Assembly: GCA_035686305.1 (NCBI GenBank)
Contig: DASRZP010000084.1
Span: 1-53,305, forward strand
Length of the DNA stretch: 53,305 nt
From: Thermodesulfovibrionales bacterium
Lineage (GTDB): Bacteria; Nitrospirota; Thermodesulfovibrionia; Thermodesulfovibrionales; UBA9159
Direction: 5' to 3'
Shown here: one piece after another, positions 5,968-10,993 of the stretch
Layout: every line of letters starts with the position of its first letter
How positions within the stretch are numbered: the stretch's first letter is position 1
Made by a program: the position numbers and the translations under genes
Notes under the pieces: model-generated
The model's input: the letters and a program-made list of their open reading frames with translations, nothing else
Told to the model about the DNA's origin: nothing
The model's database searches: none

Positions 5968-6906
5968 TTACATTAACTCGTCAATGAATTTTTCGACTGA
6001 TTTTACCGCTGCCGGATGCCTCATGATCAGAAGCTCAGCTCCTGCAACAAGCAGCGCTCCTGCCGTAGTCGTCTCCCAGGCAATGCCCCTCTCCTCAAGA
6101 GAACCCCAGAGGGGAAGGTCGGCCTCGGGAGCCTGGGTTTCCTTGACCTTCCACACGTACATCCCGACATCACCAAGCATGGGAGGCTGCATCGTCGCGT
6201 CATTCTGCGTAAGCGCTGCAAGCCGTATCCTCTCCATGACGGAATACGTATATTCAACGCCGTATCCTAGGGCAGAGCACATCGGGTCGGTTATGAGCCG
6301 CTCTTTCTCGAAGCCCATCTGGGTTATGAGAATGTTGAGCTGCTTTGAGAGGTTGATGTCGAGCTCTGACATCGCGATGAGCTTGTGATTGTTCGCCATT
6401 GCCGCAGCGGCGATCGTCTTGTAGTTGGCTTCCTGTGCCTTCCCGATAATGCAATTCTTGTCCTTGGCTGCCTCTGCAGCCGCAACGAGCACAGAGGAAT
6501 CCTTCTCGGAACTGTTGCTGCCGAGGATGATGAGAGGGACTTTGATAGCGGCAAGGACGTCCTTTACTGTTTTGGCAGCGTCCTCGGGAGAACGGTTTTC
6601 CCTGTCCGGATGTGTACCGATAAGCCTGAGGGCTATTGCCTTTGCCTTCAGTTCGTTCTGGCAGTATCCGGCCCACGTGACGGGGTCGCCCGAAACGCTT
6701 GCATAGACATTCTTCACAGTCTCAGGCCAGTCATCAGGAGGAATGTCTTGGATCTCAAAGGCTATGAGAGGTCTGTTCGGGACATTCCCTTCAAAAGAAT
6801 GGAAGGTCAGTACGTTCTCTCCGCCGAACTTGGCGGGGTTATCGGTTCCTATGGTAACCTCAAAAACCTTGCCCGGATACGTCTCTGTCGGAGCAGCAAA
6901 AGCCAT
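5968..6906 (-). CDS. acsD: Corrinoid iron-sulfur protein small subunit
   Basis: Delta/small subunit of the corrinoid Fe-S protein; a TIM-barrel partner of AcsC that helps position the corrinoid for methyl transfer. It has 312 aa, near the usual 310-325, and carries no cysteine-rich cluster motif, as expected. The SD AGGAGG lies 6 nt before the ATG. It sits between acsE (92 nt upstream) and acsC (12 nt downstream) in the same operon. Confidence 0.94.
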   Translation of the reverse strand: MAFAAPTETYPGKVFEVTIGTDNPAKFGGENVLTFHSFEGNVPNRPLIAFEIQDIPPDDWPETVKNVYASVSGDPVTWAGYCQNELKAKAIALRLIGTHPDRENRSPEDAAKTVKDVLAAIKVPLIILGSNSSEKDSSVLVAAAEAAKDKNCIIGKAQEANYKTIAAAAMANNHKLIAMSELDINLSKQLNILITQMGFEKERLITDPMCSALGYGVEYTYSVMERIRLAALTQNDATMQPPMLGDVGMYVWKVKETQAPEADLPLWGSLEERGIAWETTTAGALLVAGAELLIMRHPAAVKSVEKFIDELM

Positions 6907-6998
6907 GTTCTACCTCCTAAGAATTAAGGATACGATTAAGGTCAAGATTAAGATTCATTAAACACGATGGCTTAACCCCAACCCTCGTCTCCATGCAT

Positions 6999-7781
6999 TT
7001 ACATTTCCAGATAGGAATGGGCGTACAGGGTCCTGCCCGTGATCACATCAACGGTCTTGATGACCTCGGCCATTTCATGGGCGTCAGCAATCGCCGCTGT
7101 CAGGCCGGCTTCCATGAGCAGCAGGAAAAAGTACTTGTTCAATATCGGCCTCAGTGTTTTGGGACAGCCGTTCGATATATTGCTTAAGCCCACCACGGTC
7201 TTCATGGGCGGATCGTTCAATTCCTGGAACATCTTTATGGACTTTATAACGTGGAGGGCATGGTCCTGGGAGGTCGCTATCTGCAGGACGAGGGGATCAA
7301 GGTAGAGGTCTTCGAGAGGAACGCCGCACTCCATCGCCCTAGCCATGATTTCTGCCGCTATCCCTGCCCTCTCTTCGGCATCAGCGGGAAGGCCACCCTT
7401 TCCAACGGTAAGTCCGATGACCTGGGCATGATACTTTGCCCCCAGCTCAAGGATAGGGAATCGTTCAGGGTCGTTCGAGGTGGAATTGATCAATGGCCGG
7501 CCCCACTGGTTATTATGTACCTTTAATCCAGCCTCAATCGCCTTGAAATTCGTCGTATCGAGACAGACGGGAAGGGAGACAACCTCCTGAATAGTCGTGA
7601 CCATCCATTGCATCAGGTCTTCTCCTCCGTCCTCAGCAGGTCCTATGTTGGCGTCGATCATTCCAGCCCCCTGCTTCCACTGGGTCGTCGCGATTTCCTG
7701 GATAGGCCCCTTGTCCTTCTTCATCATAGCCTCTCTGACCCTCTTGGCTATGATGCTCAATTTCTCTCCGATAATAAACAT
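6999..7781 (-). CDS. acsE: Methyltetrahydrofolate:corrinoid/iron-sulfur protein methyltransferase
   Basis: Moves the methyl group of methyl-H4folate to Co(I) of the corrinoid Fe-S protein, linking the methyl and carbonyl branches of the Wood-Ljungdahl pathway. The 260-aa pterin-binding TIM barrel shows D-x-N (MIDANIGP), LCLDTTN-type (VCLDTTN) and INSTSND motifs that bind the pterin in this family, plus the conserved GLSNISNGCP. The frame stays open upstream to 7949, but only the ATG at 7781 has an SD (AAAGGAGGAG) and gives the normal N-terminus MFIIGEKL. First of the acsEDCBA block, with a 493-nt gap to cooC. Confidence 0.95.
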   Translation of the reverse strand: MFIIGEKLSIIAKRVREAMMKKDKGPIQEIATTQWKQGAGMIDANIGPAEDGGEDLMQWMVTTIQEVVSLPVCLDTTNFKAIEAGLKVHNNQWGRPLINSTSNDPERFPILELGAKYHAQVIGLTVGKGGLPADAEERAGIAAEIMARAMECGVPLEDLYLDPLVLQIATSQDHALHVIKSIKMFQELNDPPMKTVVGLSNISNGCPKTLRPILNKYFFLLLMEAGLTAAIADAHEMAEVIKTVDVITGRTLYAHSYLEM

Positions 7782-8274
7782 TCCTCTCCTCCTTTCAAGA
7801 ATATAAGCTTTATTAATCCGAGGATTAACAATCTTAATCAATTCTTCCACAAAAGTAAAGATTTTTCCGACACGGATCACTTCAGAGTCAAGGCACCAAA
7901 TAAACAGATTATGCTCCCAAGAGCTCTTCGTCCCAACAGCTGCTCCCAATGATCGAAAGAGTCGAAAACCTTCCCAACCTCAATGTGAAGGAAGCATCAC
8001 TGATGCTCTCCTTGCTCAGCAGATGGATGAGCGGAGCACGAGGAAACGTCCACTACCGGCCAATGATAAGGATAACAAAGATTTAAGAAGATTTCCATAG
8101 CTCATCTAATAAGTCTTATAAGATTATTTTATGAACTCATAATTATCAGGTCCTTTCTCTTTGGTGGGAGCTTTTCGGTCCTGAGGAGATGATTTACCTC
8201 CCTCCCTATGTGATGGAAATTTGCCCGGAGGAAACGGCAAAGACAGGATAAGCGATACTCGAAGATGTGGCTTG
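7782..8274. other. cooC-acsE intergenic gap with short dyads
   Basis: 493 bases without a convincing gene. It holds the acsE ribosome-binding site and three short perfect dyads: TTAATCC-ga-GGATTAA at 7813-7828 (32 nt before the acsE start), TCTTATAAGA at 8114-8123 and TTATGA-ac-TCATAA at 8129-8142. A 45-codon plus-strand reading (7949-8086) is possible but has no SD and no recognised family. The gap probably carries the main acs promoter, though I cannot point to one clear -35/-10 pair. Confidence 0.4.
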
Positions 8275-9042
8275 CTACGGGATCTGTAATGAATTGAATA
8301 TGCTGAATACGGCTCTTACTGATTTCGCATCTTCGGGCAGGTTCATCACAGGCCTGCCCTCAAGATCATAAGTGAAGACGAGTTTATCCTGCGGCACTAG
8401 GCCGGCAACATGGATTCCAAGGTTCTCGGCCATTCTACTCAGTTCTTCCCCTTCATGTCCGGTCACCCTGTTTATGAAAAGGACCCTCTTGTCAATCTCG
8501 AGCCGGAGTTCGTCTACGAGGTCATAGATACGCTTGGCAGTCTGTATCCCCTTCACCGTTGGGTCGCTCACAATGATCAGGAGATCGACCTTGTGCGTTG
8601 TCCTCCTGCTGAGATGCTCCATGCCGGCTTCATTATCGATGACCACGTAGGGATAGGTCTCGGAGAGTTTATCGGTATACTTTCTGATCGTATTGTTGGC
8701 AGCACAGTAGCAGCCGGGACCTTCCGGTCTTCCCATGACCATGAGATCGAATCCCTTTGCCTCTATGACTGATTGTTGGACCTGGTAATCGAAAAGCTGC
8801 TCCATACTCATGCCGCCGGGCCGCTCCCCTCCGCCCCGGATGGCTGCAAGAGACTCCTCACGGAGTTTTCCGATTGTAGCGTGCACCTTGATGCCGAGGG
8901 CCTCGTTGAGGCATGAGTTGCTGTCGGCATCAACGGCCAGAACCGGACCTCTCCGGTTCTTCAGGAGATATTTGACGGTAAGGGCTGCGGTGCTTGTCTT
9001 GCCCGTCCCACCCTTTCCTGCGAAGGCAATTACGTACGCCAT
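8275..9042 (-). CDS. cooC: CO dehydrogenase nickel-insertion ATPase CooC
   Basis: MinD/ParA-like P-loop ATPase that binds nickel at a dimer interface and helps load the C-cluster of CO dehydrogenase. It has 255 aa. The deviant Walker A GKGGTGKT is at residues 9-16, and the metal-binding CxC pair is C111-Y-C113 (GPGCYCAANN). DNEAGMEHLSRRT is the typical Walker B/switch region. It heads the acs cluster, separated from acsE by 493 nt. The start has no Shine-Dalgarno; instead a TATAAT lies 5 nt upstream of the ATG, right after the terminator of the preceding gene, suggesting a leaderless mRNA. Confidence 0.92.
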   Translation of the reverse strand: MAYVIAFAGKGGTGKTSTAALTVKYLLKNRRGPVLAVDADSNSCLNEALGIKVHATIGKLREESLAAIRGGGERPGGMSMEQLFDYQVQQSVIEAKGFDLMVMGRPEGPGCYCAANNTIRKYTDKLSETYPYVVIDNEAGMEHLSRRTTHKVDLLIIVSDPTVKGIQTAKRIYDLVDELRLEIDKRVLFINRVTGHEGEELSRMAENLGIHVAGLVPQDKLVFTYDLEGRPVMNLPEDAKSVRAVFSIFNSLQIP

Positions 9043-9117: not shown

Positions 9118-9378
9118 TTAGCAGCCTTCTACTGCCTTTTTCTTTGGTGCTGCCTTTGTCGCCACGCCATCCTTGACAGTGACTTCGTCGCCGACCTTCA
9201 GGTCCTTCGCGGACTTCACGTCAACGGTAACTTCCTTGTCTTTTGTCTTGATGGTGAGCTTGTTGCCGTCTATCTTCGTGATCTTGCCCATCACCGGTTC
9301 TGCAGCAAAAGCGAGGCCGACAACCCCAAGGGTGAATATCACGGCCACGAGTAAAGCGATAATCTTTTTTGTCATCAT
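9118..9378 (-). CDS. Small exported protein, unknown function
   Basis: 86 aa. Residues 1-26 form a signal peptide (MTKK, then a long hydrophobic stretch ending AFA-AE). The mature part is a short beta-rich domain with the pattern GKITKIDGNKLTIKTKD-x-TVDV...DLKVGDEVTVKDG, resembling the small OB/SH3-like repeats of DUF5666-type exported proteins. The tail is lysine-rich (KKK) and ends in a single cysteine, VEGC. The SD is strong (GGAGGTGAGAGG); the ATG at 9378 or 9375 could be used. It lies 146 nt downstream of the UGA-containing yeeE on the same strand and ends at its own terminator, so it may be the last gene of that unit. Function not recognised. Confidence 0.75.
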   Translation of the reverse strand: MMTKKIIALLVAVIFTLGVVGLAFAAEPVMGKITKIDGNKLTIKTKDKEVTVDVKSAKDLKVGDEVTVKDGVATKAAPKKKAVEGC

Positions 9379-9524: not shown

Positions 9525-10619
9525 CTAATCCTGCATCGGCTTTATGAACAGGAAATAGGTCATCGTCCAGTTGCCGAGGATGATAAAGATCGTCGCAACA
9601 ATGCTTTGCAGGGCCAAGGCCGACATACCTGTCAGCGAGTGTCCGACAGTTCAGCCGCCGGCTATGGCAGCGCCGAAGCCCATCACAAGGCCGCCGAGAA
9701 AGACCCTGATCAATTCATCGACCTGCTTTGGCGCGGTCCACTTGAACTCGCCAAGTCCTTTTGAGCTGAGGTACGCCCCTATCGGAACACCTATCACGTA
9801 AAGGGCGCTCCACGAAGCCACACCGACACCGAAGAGATTGAATACCACGTCATTTTTTGCACCGCTGTTGCCGACGAGGACAAACATGAGGAACTCAGCA
9901 AGAGGGCCTGAGAAGGACAAGCCCCTTGCCCGGCCGCCCCACTGGTATGATGCCCACCATGCCACAACAACCAATACTCCGACGAGCAACCCGCCGACAG
10001 ACCATGACCAGCCCTTCTTCGGCCCTTTGCCAAAAGGCTTTCCCTTCAGCACAACAGGGATGATGATAGCAGCGACGACGGCGATAACGACCCATTTCAC
10101 CGTCATACCGCCGCCGACGAGGTCCCACAGGGCAGGGCTGGTTATAGCATCCTCACCCTGGCCGATCGAAACCTTGAATTGCTTGATGATCTGTGCAAGG
10201 GGTTTCAGGGGGCCATGCAAGGTTGCGATCAGAGATACACCGAAACCAAAGGTTGCTATGACAGCGGCAAACTGGCCTTCACCCTGTTTGTAGAGCACGC
10301 CACTTCCGCACCCGCCGGCCATAACAATGCCGACGCCGAAGATGTAGCCGCCGACAATAGCGGCAAGAGGGGCAAAGGCCTGACGAGTCAAACCGTCTTG
10401 ACCCATGAACCCGAATTGCTCTAGGAGATTGGAACCGATCACGGCCACCAGGAGAGCCAGAAGCCATGAACGAAACAACGTAAGGTCATTAACAAAGATC
10501 ACGTCTCTGAATGCTGAGTTCATTCAATATCTGCCGCGCTGGAGAACAAAGCCGAAGAGAGTGCCTACCAGGAGCGCACTCAGTACCGTAATGATACTCG
10601 CTGTCGCTACCTCTTCCAT
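9525..10619 (-). CDS. YeeE/YedE-family membrane transporter with two in-frame UGA codons (probable double selenoprotein)
   Basis: Read through two UGA codons, this frame gives one 364-aa YeeE/YedE protein. The ATG at 10619 has GGAGG 8 nt upstream and the frame ends at a TAG at 9525-9527. UGA codon 32 (10524-10526) falls in QRGRY-U-MNSAFRD and UGA codon 323 (9651-9653) in AGG-U-TVGHSLTG. In the family both positions are cysteine. The third conserved cysteine is encoded normally as C104 in AGGCGSG. Family members are multi-pass inner-membrane proteins; the Spirochaeta thermophila member takes up thiosulfate by relay between conserved cysteines, and YedE is linked to selenium metabolism. Many glycine-rich hydrophobic helices are visible. 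UGA is a normal stop elsewhere in the window. If not recoded, the gene is doubly broken. Neighbours: DsrE-like gene upstream, small exported protein downstream. Confidence 0.85.
9629..9653 (-). promoter_or_regulatory. SECIS-like hairpin at the second UGA of yeeE
   Basis: Immediately after UGA and one A, CTGTC pairs with GACAG around an 11-nt loop (minus strand). A second possible pairing joins the GACA inside that loop to a TGTC further downstream. Bacterial SECIS elements lie directly 3' of the UGA; the position fits, but the fold is weak and no consensus was tested. Confidence 0.3.
10508..10526 (-). promoter_or_regulatory. SECIS-like hairpin at the first UGA of yeeE
   Basis: Starting with the UGA itself, TGAATG pairs perfectly with CATTCA over a 7-nt loop (AACTCAG) on the minus strand. 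This could be part of a recoding signal; it is shorter than the E. coli fdhF SECIS and unverified. Confidence 0.3.
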
Positions 10620-10688
10620 TCACTACACCTCCTCATGGTATTTGCGGCCACTCCATGGGCCCTCATTCTTCTCAGCGGTGGCCTATCG

Positions 10689-10717: not shown

Positions 10718-10993
10718 CTAGTATGGCAGCACGTGGTCGTACTGCAACAGTCTCTCCGCAATCTCCTCTACAGGTATAACCTCACCCTGTCCATTCTCAT
10801 CATAATTTGTATAGACCTTAAGGCCCATCTCTCTGATCATTTCGAGGCCGAATCTCACCTCTTCCGTATCTGCCAATCTTCTGTCAAGGATAAAGATATT
10901 CACATCATCGTTCAGAATAGTCAACCCGATGCCCATTCGTAAAGCCTCAGCCTGTCGGTCCCTGACGATGACAGCAATTCTCTTCATCGACAT
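10718..10993 (-). CDS. DsrE-family sulfur-relay-like protein
   Basis: 91 aa with the DsrE/TusD-like alpha-beta pattern: KRIAVIVRDR at the N-terminus, a middle NDDVNIFILD strand and a C-terminal VIPVEEIAERLLQYDHVLPY. Family members handle persulfide or other sulfur species. The conserved cysteine of TusD/DsrE is not present here, so it is probably a non-catalytic or partner subunit. It sits 98 nt upstream of the UGA-containing yeeE, echoing the yedE-yedF (TusA/DsrE) pairing known from selenium metabolism. No SD precedes the ATG; a TATTAT lies 5 nt before it. Confidence 0.6.
   Translation of the reverse strand: MSMKRIAVIVRDRQAEALRMGIGLTILNDDVNIFILDRRLADTEEVRFGLEMIREMGLKVYTNYDENGQGEVIPVEEIAERLLQYDHVLPY

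Follow-up and report, generated by a model that had tools for sequence, protein, structure and literature searches.

A yeeE-like gene with two in-frame UGA codons

The window analysed here, a stretch of 53,305 nucleotides from a Thermodesulfovibrionales bacterium, contains a yeeE-like gene on its minus strand (positions 9525 to 10619), with an ATG at 10619, a TAG at 9525 and a putative product of 364 amino acids (Sec32-Cys104-Sec323). The frame contains TGA at codons 32 (10524 to 10526) and 323 (9651 to 9653) and no further internal stop, and a Shine-Dalgarno sequence, GAGGAGG (10628 to 10634), ends 8 nt upstream of the ATG. The plus-strand frame over the same interval was rejected, as it contains six TGAs and an in-frame stop. 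An earlier note, made from the sequence alone, had described a frame interrupted only by UGA, with a Shine-Dalgarno sequence and a TAG end; these features were borne out, and the strand, which the note did not give, is the minus strand. Two small genes, also on the minus strand, flank yeeE: one for a 91-amino-acid protein with no Pfam match of its own (10718 to 10993) lies upstream, and one for an ExtJ-like protein of 86 amino acids (9118 to 9378; NF040942, 64.4 bits with a cut-off of 52.5) lies downstream. Just 3' of this operon (5968 to 9042) are genes for an acetyl-CoA synthase delta subunit, a methyltransferase and a CooC/MinD-like ATPase.

Alignment of homologues placed both UGA codons exactly at conserved family cysteines, as the note had stated. 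All three conserved cysteine positions are present, with positions 32, 104 and 323 aligning with C22, C91 and C293, respectively, of YeeE from Spirochaeta thermophila (StYeeE), so that two of the three are UGA: codon 32 at the third, cytoplasmic relay cysteine and codon 323 at the first, periplasmic one. The middle relay cysteine is encoded by TGC at codon 104 (10308 to 10310, minus strand), a column that is Cys (TGC or TGT) in all 61 homologous genes. Reassignment of UGA in the genetic code was rejected because the frames of ordinary genes of the window (FtsH-, TrmFO- and XerC-like, named from sequence) terminate at TGA.

Alternation of Cys and putative Sec codons among homologues

Homologues were sought in 396 genomes of the same phylum, 160 of which yielded a match; the titles of the named loci of relatives were mostly Nitrospirae, Nitrospirota or Thermodesulfovibrionales. 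Genes were classified according to the residues at positions 32, 104 and 323, with U denoting TGA, which gave 15 distinct UCU, 18 CCU and 26 CCC genes. Across 61 homologous genes (21,615 codons), 48 of the 49 in-frame TGAs were located at column 32 (15) or column 323 (33). The remaining one, at column 361, was interpreted as the normal stop of a shorter gene, and these 61 genes contained no in-frame TAA or TAG. Exchange between Cys and the putative Sec codon in relatives was strict at both columns, and the unrelated stop mutations that, according to the note, would have refuted the Sec reading were absent.

Exactly two TGAs were present in 15 genomes including that of the window, with the other 14 genes showing 66 to 77% identity to the window gene. 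The identical pair in 15 distinct genomes supports the note's argument that two chance nonsense mutations at these sites are unlikely. One genome with both TGAs is a single-contig assembly with a listed completeness of 100%, and sequencing error is in effect excluded because the same TGAs recur in all 15 genomes, this one among them. The ratio pN/pS in the UCU genes was 0.21 for codons 1 to 31, 0.18 for codons 33 to 103, 0.26 for codons 105 to 322 and 0.10 for codons 324 to 362. The segments before, between and after the TGAs are therefore selected as protein.

A protein tree was constructed after both Sec columns had been masked. In this tree, one CCU gene (L027) grouped with all 15 UCU genes in a single branch (support 98/98), the neighbour of which was an 11-gene all-Cys branch. 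The minimum number of label changes on the tree was two for column 32 and six for column 323. As inferred from this tree, Sec/Cys exchange at column 323 is repeated, and Sec at column 32 may have a single origin; because column 32 requires just two changes, the 15 genomes do not represent 15 independent events. The UCU and all-Cys forms occur together in at least seven genomes. A plasmid collection yielded 12 matching records, all less than 60% identical, with the fuller ones at about 33 to 34%.

SECIS-like hairpins downstream of the UGA codons

A candidate SECIS element follows each UGA on the minus strand: SECIS 1 (CAGAGA-CGUGA-UCUUUG, 10493 to 10509), whose loop starts 20 nt past UGA32, and SECIS 2 (GCUGACA-GGUA-UGUCGGC, 9619 to 9636), whose loop starts 21 nt past UGA323. 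All six pairs of hairpin 1 are intact in each of the 15 UCU genes, whereas most CCU and CCC genes have a disrupted hairpin. Its sequence is near-invariant, with only one sequence carrying a two-sided change (C-G to U-A). The stem of hairpin 2 is maintained by two-sided changes (GC/CG at the base and CG/TA at the next pair) in UCU genes and, for the most part, in CCU genes, whereas CCC genes have largely lost it.

Synonymous-codon identity was computed in windows of 12 codons. For UCU genes, the top-ranking of the 342 windows start at codons 31 to 33, with an identity of 0.83 to 0.86 compared with a column mean of 0.43; for CCU genes, the top-ranking of 306 windows start at codons 323 and 324 (0.72 compared with 0.46). 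The rise after codon 323 was moderate in UCU genes (0.54, with 30 of 342 windows scoring higher). For CCC genes, the region after codon 323 was unremarkable, with 227 of 283 windows scoring higher, and identity after codon 32 was barely raised (0.43 compared with 0.36). Folding energies relative to synonymous redraws gave mean z values after codon 323 of –1.05 for UCU, –1.51 for CCU and –0.14 for CCC genes, and after codon 32 of –0.72 for UCU and –0.23 for CCC genes. Hairpin 1 is short, with a high proportion of A-U and G-U pairs, and its energy by itself is weak; its support therefore lies mainly in sequence invariance and less in energy. In these sequence comparisons, the presence of both hairpins tracks UGA.

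One all-Cys gene (L028) retains a complete SECIS-like hairpin 3' of its TGC codon 323 and is perhaps a recent reversion from Sec to Cys. Another type of hairpin (AAGCC-UUU-GGCUU, with a variable stem) lies in the leader, 24 to 32 nt 5' of the start, of most UCU genes (L010, L012, L014 and L020, for example), and similar leader hairpins precede some CCU genes; a scan for this type found none in the window's own gene.

Selenocysteine machinery

The earlier note had named the absence of Sec machinery as a result that would refute it; selA (609.1 bits), selB (378.8 bits), selD (360.2 bits) and a tRNA-Sec with a UCA anticodon were all found in the genome of the window. This tRNA was the sole match to tRNA-Sec above the cut-off in that genome, and seven other RF01852 matches that were inspected there proved to be ordinary tRNAs. 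Among searched genomes bearing a TGA form of yeeE, selB was above the cut-off in 31 of 31. Of 80 relatives searched, 74 had selB above the cut-off and 72 had tRNA-Sec; because most all-Cys relatives also carry Sec machinery, its presence does not discriminate between Sec and all-Cys forms. The selD gene of the window's genome (L130; G000:C57:7793-8716) itself contains one in-frame TGA, and Sec-containing SelD is a known phenomenon.

The replacement of Cys in homologues by Sec is well established. We read UGA as Sec in the present gene because homologues have Cys at the same columns and the genome contains the machinery. Both UGAs are, on sequence evidence, very probably decoded as Sec, with no protein-level evidence of Sec.

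Family and structure model

The product matched the Pfam family Sulf_transp (PF04143) over nearly its whole length, with a score of 249.9 bits (cut-off of 27). Assignment to the YeeE family, as given in the note, is supported by this score, which is above the gathering level, together with the YeeE fold. A single-sequence AlphaFold model was poor (pLDDT of 43.6), and a model obtained with AlphaFold 2 from a 50-sequence alignment (pLDDT of 88.8, pTM of 0.87) was used instead. This model resembled YeeE of the YeeE-YeeD complex (8k1r) with a Z score of 46.6 over 322 residues (rmsd of 1.9, 36% identity); the best match outside the YeeE family had a Z score of 5.7. The protein scored below the cut-offs of the TsuA equivalog models NF052577 (249.2 of 400) and NF041049 (164.9 of 645), and its substrate therefore cannot be read from the family name. 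Scores for models of selenium transporters were far below the cut-off (47.7 of 200 for TIGR04112, 85.2 of 350 for NF033796); these models describe YedE/FdhT, a membrane protein of selenium metabolism that belongs to the same superfamily.

The predicted fold as a whole and the three relay positions are like those of TsuA/YeeE of S. thermophila (6leo, 8k1r; PMC11073785), whereas the window protein has putative Sec in place of two of the relay's three thiols and, unlike S. thermophila YeeE-YeeD, no YeeD-like neighbour. The cysteines of YeeE act in the order C293, C91, C22 from the periplasmic to the cytoplasmic side (PMC11073785). Given their alignment with C293 and C22, respectively, Sec323 would be the periplasmic entry and Sec32 the cytoplasmic exit of the relay.

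Gene neighbourhood and genome context

Genes for the 91-amino-acid protein and a 55-amino-acid DsrH-like protein lie directly 5' of yeeE in seven other UCU loci (L101, L102, L103, L106, L109, L111 and L112). A gene for a DsrE-like protein of about 100 amino acids precedes this pair in all six of those loci for which the upstream gene was read, so that the 91-amino-acid homologue stands between the DsrE- and DsrH-like proteins; these DsrE-like proteins are marginal to Pfam DsrE, scoring 23.5 bits at best (cut-off of 22.7). In the window, no TusA gene adjoins yeeE, and of the DsrEFH-like trio only the 91-amino-acid gene is adjacent. The CCU relative in genome G314 (locus L125) differs from the window in having the full set beside yeeE, in the order DsrE-, DsrF- and DsrH-like genes, yeeE, ExtJ-like gene, cytochrome and TusA, with an ArsR regulator also present. 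A DsrE homologue and, next to it, a DsrH-like protein are encoded on another contig of the window's genome, and a 602-amino-acid protein encoded beside this pair (L124:5811-7619; G000:C103) has a stretch that, by eye, resembles the ExtJ-like protein. The genome of the window also contains dsrA (530.7 bits), with a second copy (334) below the cut-off; the dsrA-like loci are G000:C5:17027-19213 and, for the copy below the cut-off, G000:C73:8481-10597.

Of the 15 UCU loci, 13 have an ExtJ-like match 3' of yeeE, two of these matches being weak. The ExtJ-like protein of the window has a signal-like NH2-terminus and ends in EGC, so that a role as a periplasmic carrier with a terminal thiol is possible. 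The EGC end is conserved among the ExtJ-like homologues of most UCU loci. Sec at the COOH-terminus of the window's protein was rejected, given that the stop after TGC is TAA. Two ExtJ-like genes of close relatives (L107:7132-7434 and L108:9074-9352) end in AAA TGA AAA TGC TAA, such that read-through would add U-K-C; with only these two cases, the pattern is possibly due to chance.

The gene row of L125 resembles clusters of the YTD type (yeeE-tusA-dsrEFH type II; PMC13293266), which have been described for sulfate reducers, disproportionators and cable bacteria. A yeeE-like gene beside genes for DsrE/F/H-like carriers, occurrence in Nitrospirota and a Dsr-containing genome are common to these clusters and the present system. 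The window differs from these clusters in that it lacks an adjacent tusA and in that the small neighbours are only marginal to Pfam DsrE. Selenium is not mentioned in the main text of the paper on these clusters (PMC13293266).

Proposed function and alternative explanations

We consider it highly likely that the gene encodes a double-Sec YeeE transporter whose decoding is aided by hairpins and which imports sulfane sulfur into a Dsr-linked relay. Of this explanation, the frame, the Sec/Cys exchange, the SECIS-like constraint, the machinery and the fold are supported by comparison of sequences, and Sec incorporation itself is inferred. Each UGA would be read as Sec by way of SelA, SelB, SelD and tRNA-Sec, aided by the hairpin about 20 nt downstream. 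The relay would then start on the periplasmic side at Sec323 (C293), continue through Cys104 (C91) and end with Sec32 (C22) at the cytoplasmic exit, which in the solved YeeE-YeeD complex is the docking site of a partner sulfur carrier. The DsrE/H-like and ExtJ-like neighbours point to sulfane sulfur or thiosulfate as the imported cargo, with direction and partners, like the substrate and thiosulfate transport in particular, remaining inferences. The cargo would most likely be a sulfane-sulfur compound (thiosulfate, a persulfide or a polysulfide), with its sulfur passed on to DsrE/F/H-like carriers that feed the Dsr pathway; the ExtJ-like secreted protein, with its COOH-terminal Cys, may deliver on the outside. 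The selenols, by inference, would serve as better nucleophiles or leaving groups in cargo uptake and hand-over. The note's suggestion that they speed the transfer of particular sulfur or selenium species, and an acceleration of the nucleophilic step in general, also remain inferences.

YeeE itself has been proposed to relay intact thiosulfate by way of hydrogen bonds (PMC11073785). The SoxT1 sulfur importers, which are also of the three-cysteine YeeE type, have been proposed to pass sulfane sulfur; direct transfer among the three cysteines is conceivable but has been questioned because of their spacing (PMC11582611). SoxT1 proteins differ from the window protein in that they have the Cys form and a Sox/sHdr setting. 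YeeE/YedE selenoproteins already on record have one Sec, in the motif GUxSG (WP_012471001; PMC13188914, PMC9312934), and share with the window protein the Pfam family and the presence of Sec in place of a family cysteine. The motif GUxSG matches only the context of the middle cysteine (GCGSG at Cys104 here), which fits a Sec at that position, a comparison made with the motif only and not with the sequence of WP_012471001; the window protein, in contrast, has the middle Cys and two outer Sec residues. No description of Sec at the two outer YeeE positions was found in the open-access literature searched, and PMC13188914 lists the one-Sec form only, consistent with the note, to whose author no described YeeE with two Sec residues was known. 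The known prokaryotic selenoproteins gain a two-Sec polytopic membrane transporter, with Sec incorporation being inferred. The occurrence of Sec at exactly the entry and the exit, with Cys retained in the middle, suggests a role for nucleophilicity or redox chemistry at both ends, and CCC, CCU and UCU forms provide a natural series for directly testing the chemistry of the end sites.

With regard to the cargo, we favour import of sulfur into a Dsr-linked relay; the main rival is selenium import, in which the Sec assignment would be correct and the protein a YedE-like selenium transporter. YedE, YedF and LysR_Se are tied to selenium metabolism (PMC5322559). All-Cys sister genes adjoin LysR_Se in two checked loci (NF040786, 316 to 318 bits) and are near YedF in three (TIGR03527, 196 to 208 bits), and the gene downstream of yeeE in the window matches ExtJ, whose name derives from a selenite/tellurite operon. 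These links are offset by the fact that the TsuA models are top-scoring and the selenium-transporter models far below the cut-off, as well as by the DsrE/H-like sulfur carriers that neighbour the Sec form itself; ExtJ, moreover, has been described merely as a small protein without a known function (PMC5877670). We thus regard selenium as an unlikely cargo.

A tRNA-Sec-shaped RNA with the anticodon GCA lies directly 5' of an all-Cys yeeE sister gene in five genomes (L049:3853-3975 and matching places in L025/L044, L045, L050 and L084). It fits the selC* class of tRNA-Cys (PMC7609411); ARAGORN did not report selC*-like tRNAs upstream of all-Cys yeeE. Given that selC* tRNA-Cys occurs in Nitrospirae, that forms with the opal (UCA) anticodon have been described elsewhere (PMC7609411) and that selC*-like genes adjoin the all-Cys sister genes, an opal-suppressing Sec-like tRNA-Cys might read both UGAs as Cys and so yield an all-Cys protein. 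We consider this very improbable: the selC* copies concerned carry GCA, the only tRNA-Sec match above the cut-off in the window's genome is the UCA tRNA-Sec, with the seven others inspected being ordinary, and selA, selB and selD are present, whereas SECIS-like hairpins would be superfluous. It is scarcely credible that the gene is a pseudogene or has been split by two stop mutations, possibly with a restart at the ATG immediately 3' of the first TGA and a 290-amino-acid open reading frame between the TGAs, in the face of the identical TGA pair in 15 genomes without further disabling stops, the pN/pS of 0.21 ahead of the first TGA and 0.10 past the second, and the substitution of UGA for Cys exactly at family-invariant columns.

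Beyond sulfur import by the double-Sec form, we tentatively raise a broader scheme, itself rather doubtful, in which selenium status would toggle two YeeE forms: the double-Sec form with DsrE/F/H-like relays, and the all-Cys form under LysR_Se and co-transcribed with selC*. The selenols of the Sec form would bind sulfur covalently, and YeeE would be a chalcogen-transfer relay and not a hydrogen-bond conduit. In two of the selC*-like loci, LysR_Se is located upstream and YedF downstream of the all-Cys yeeE gene.
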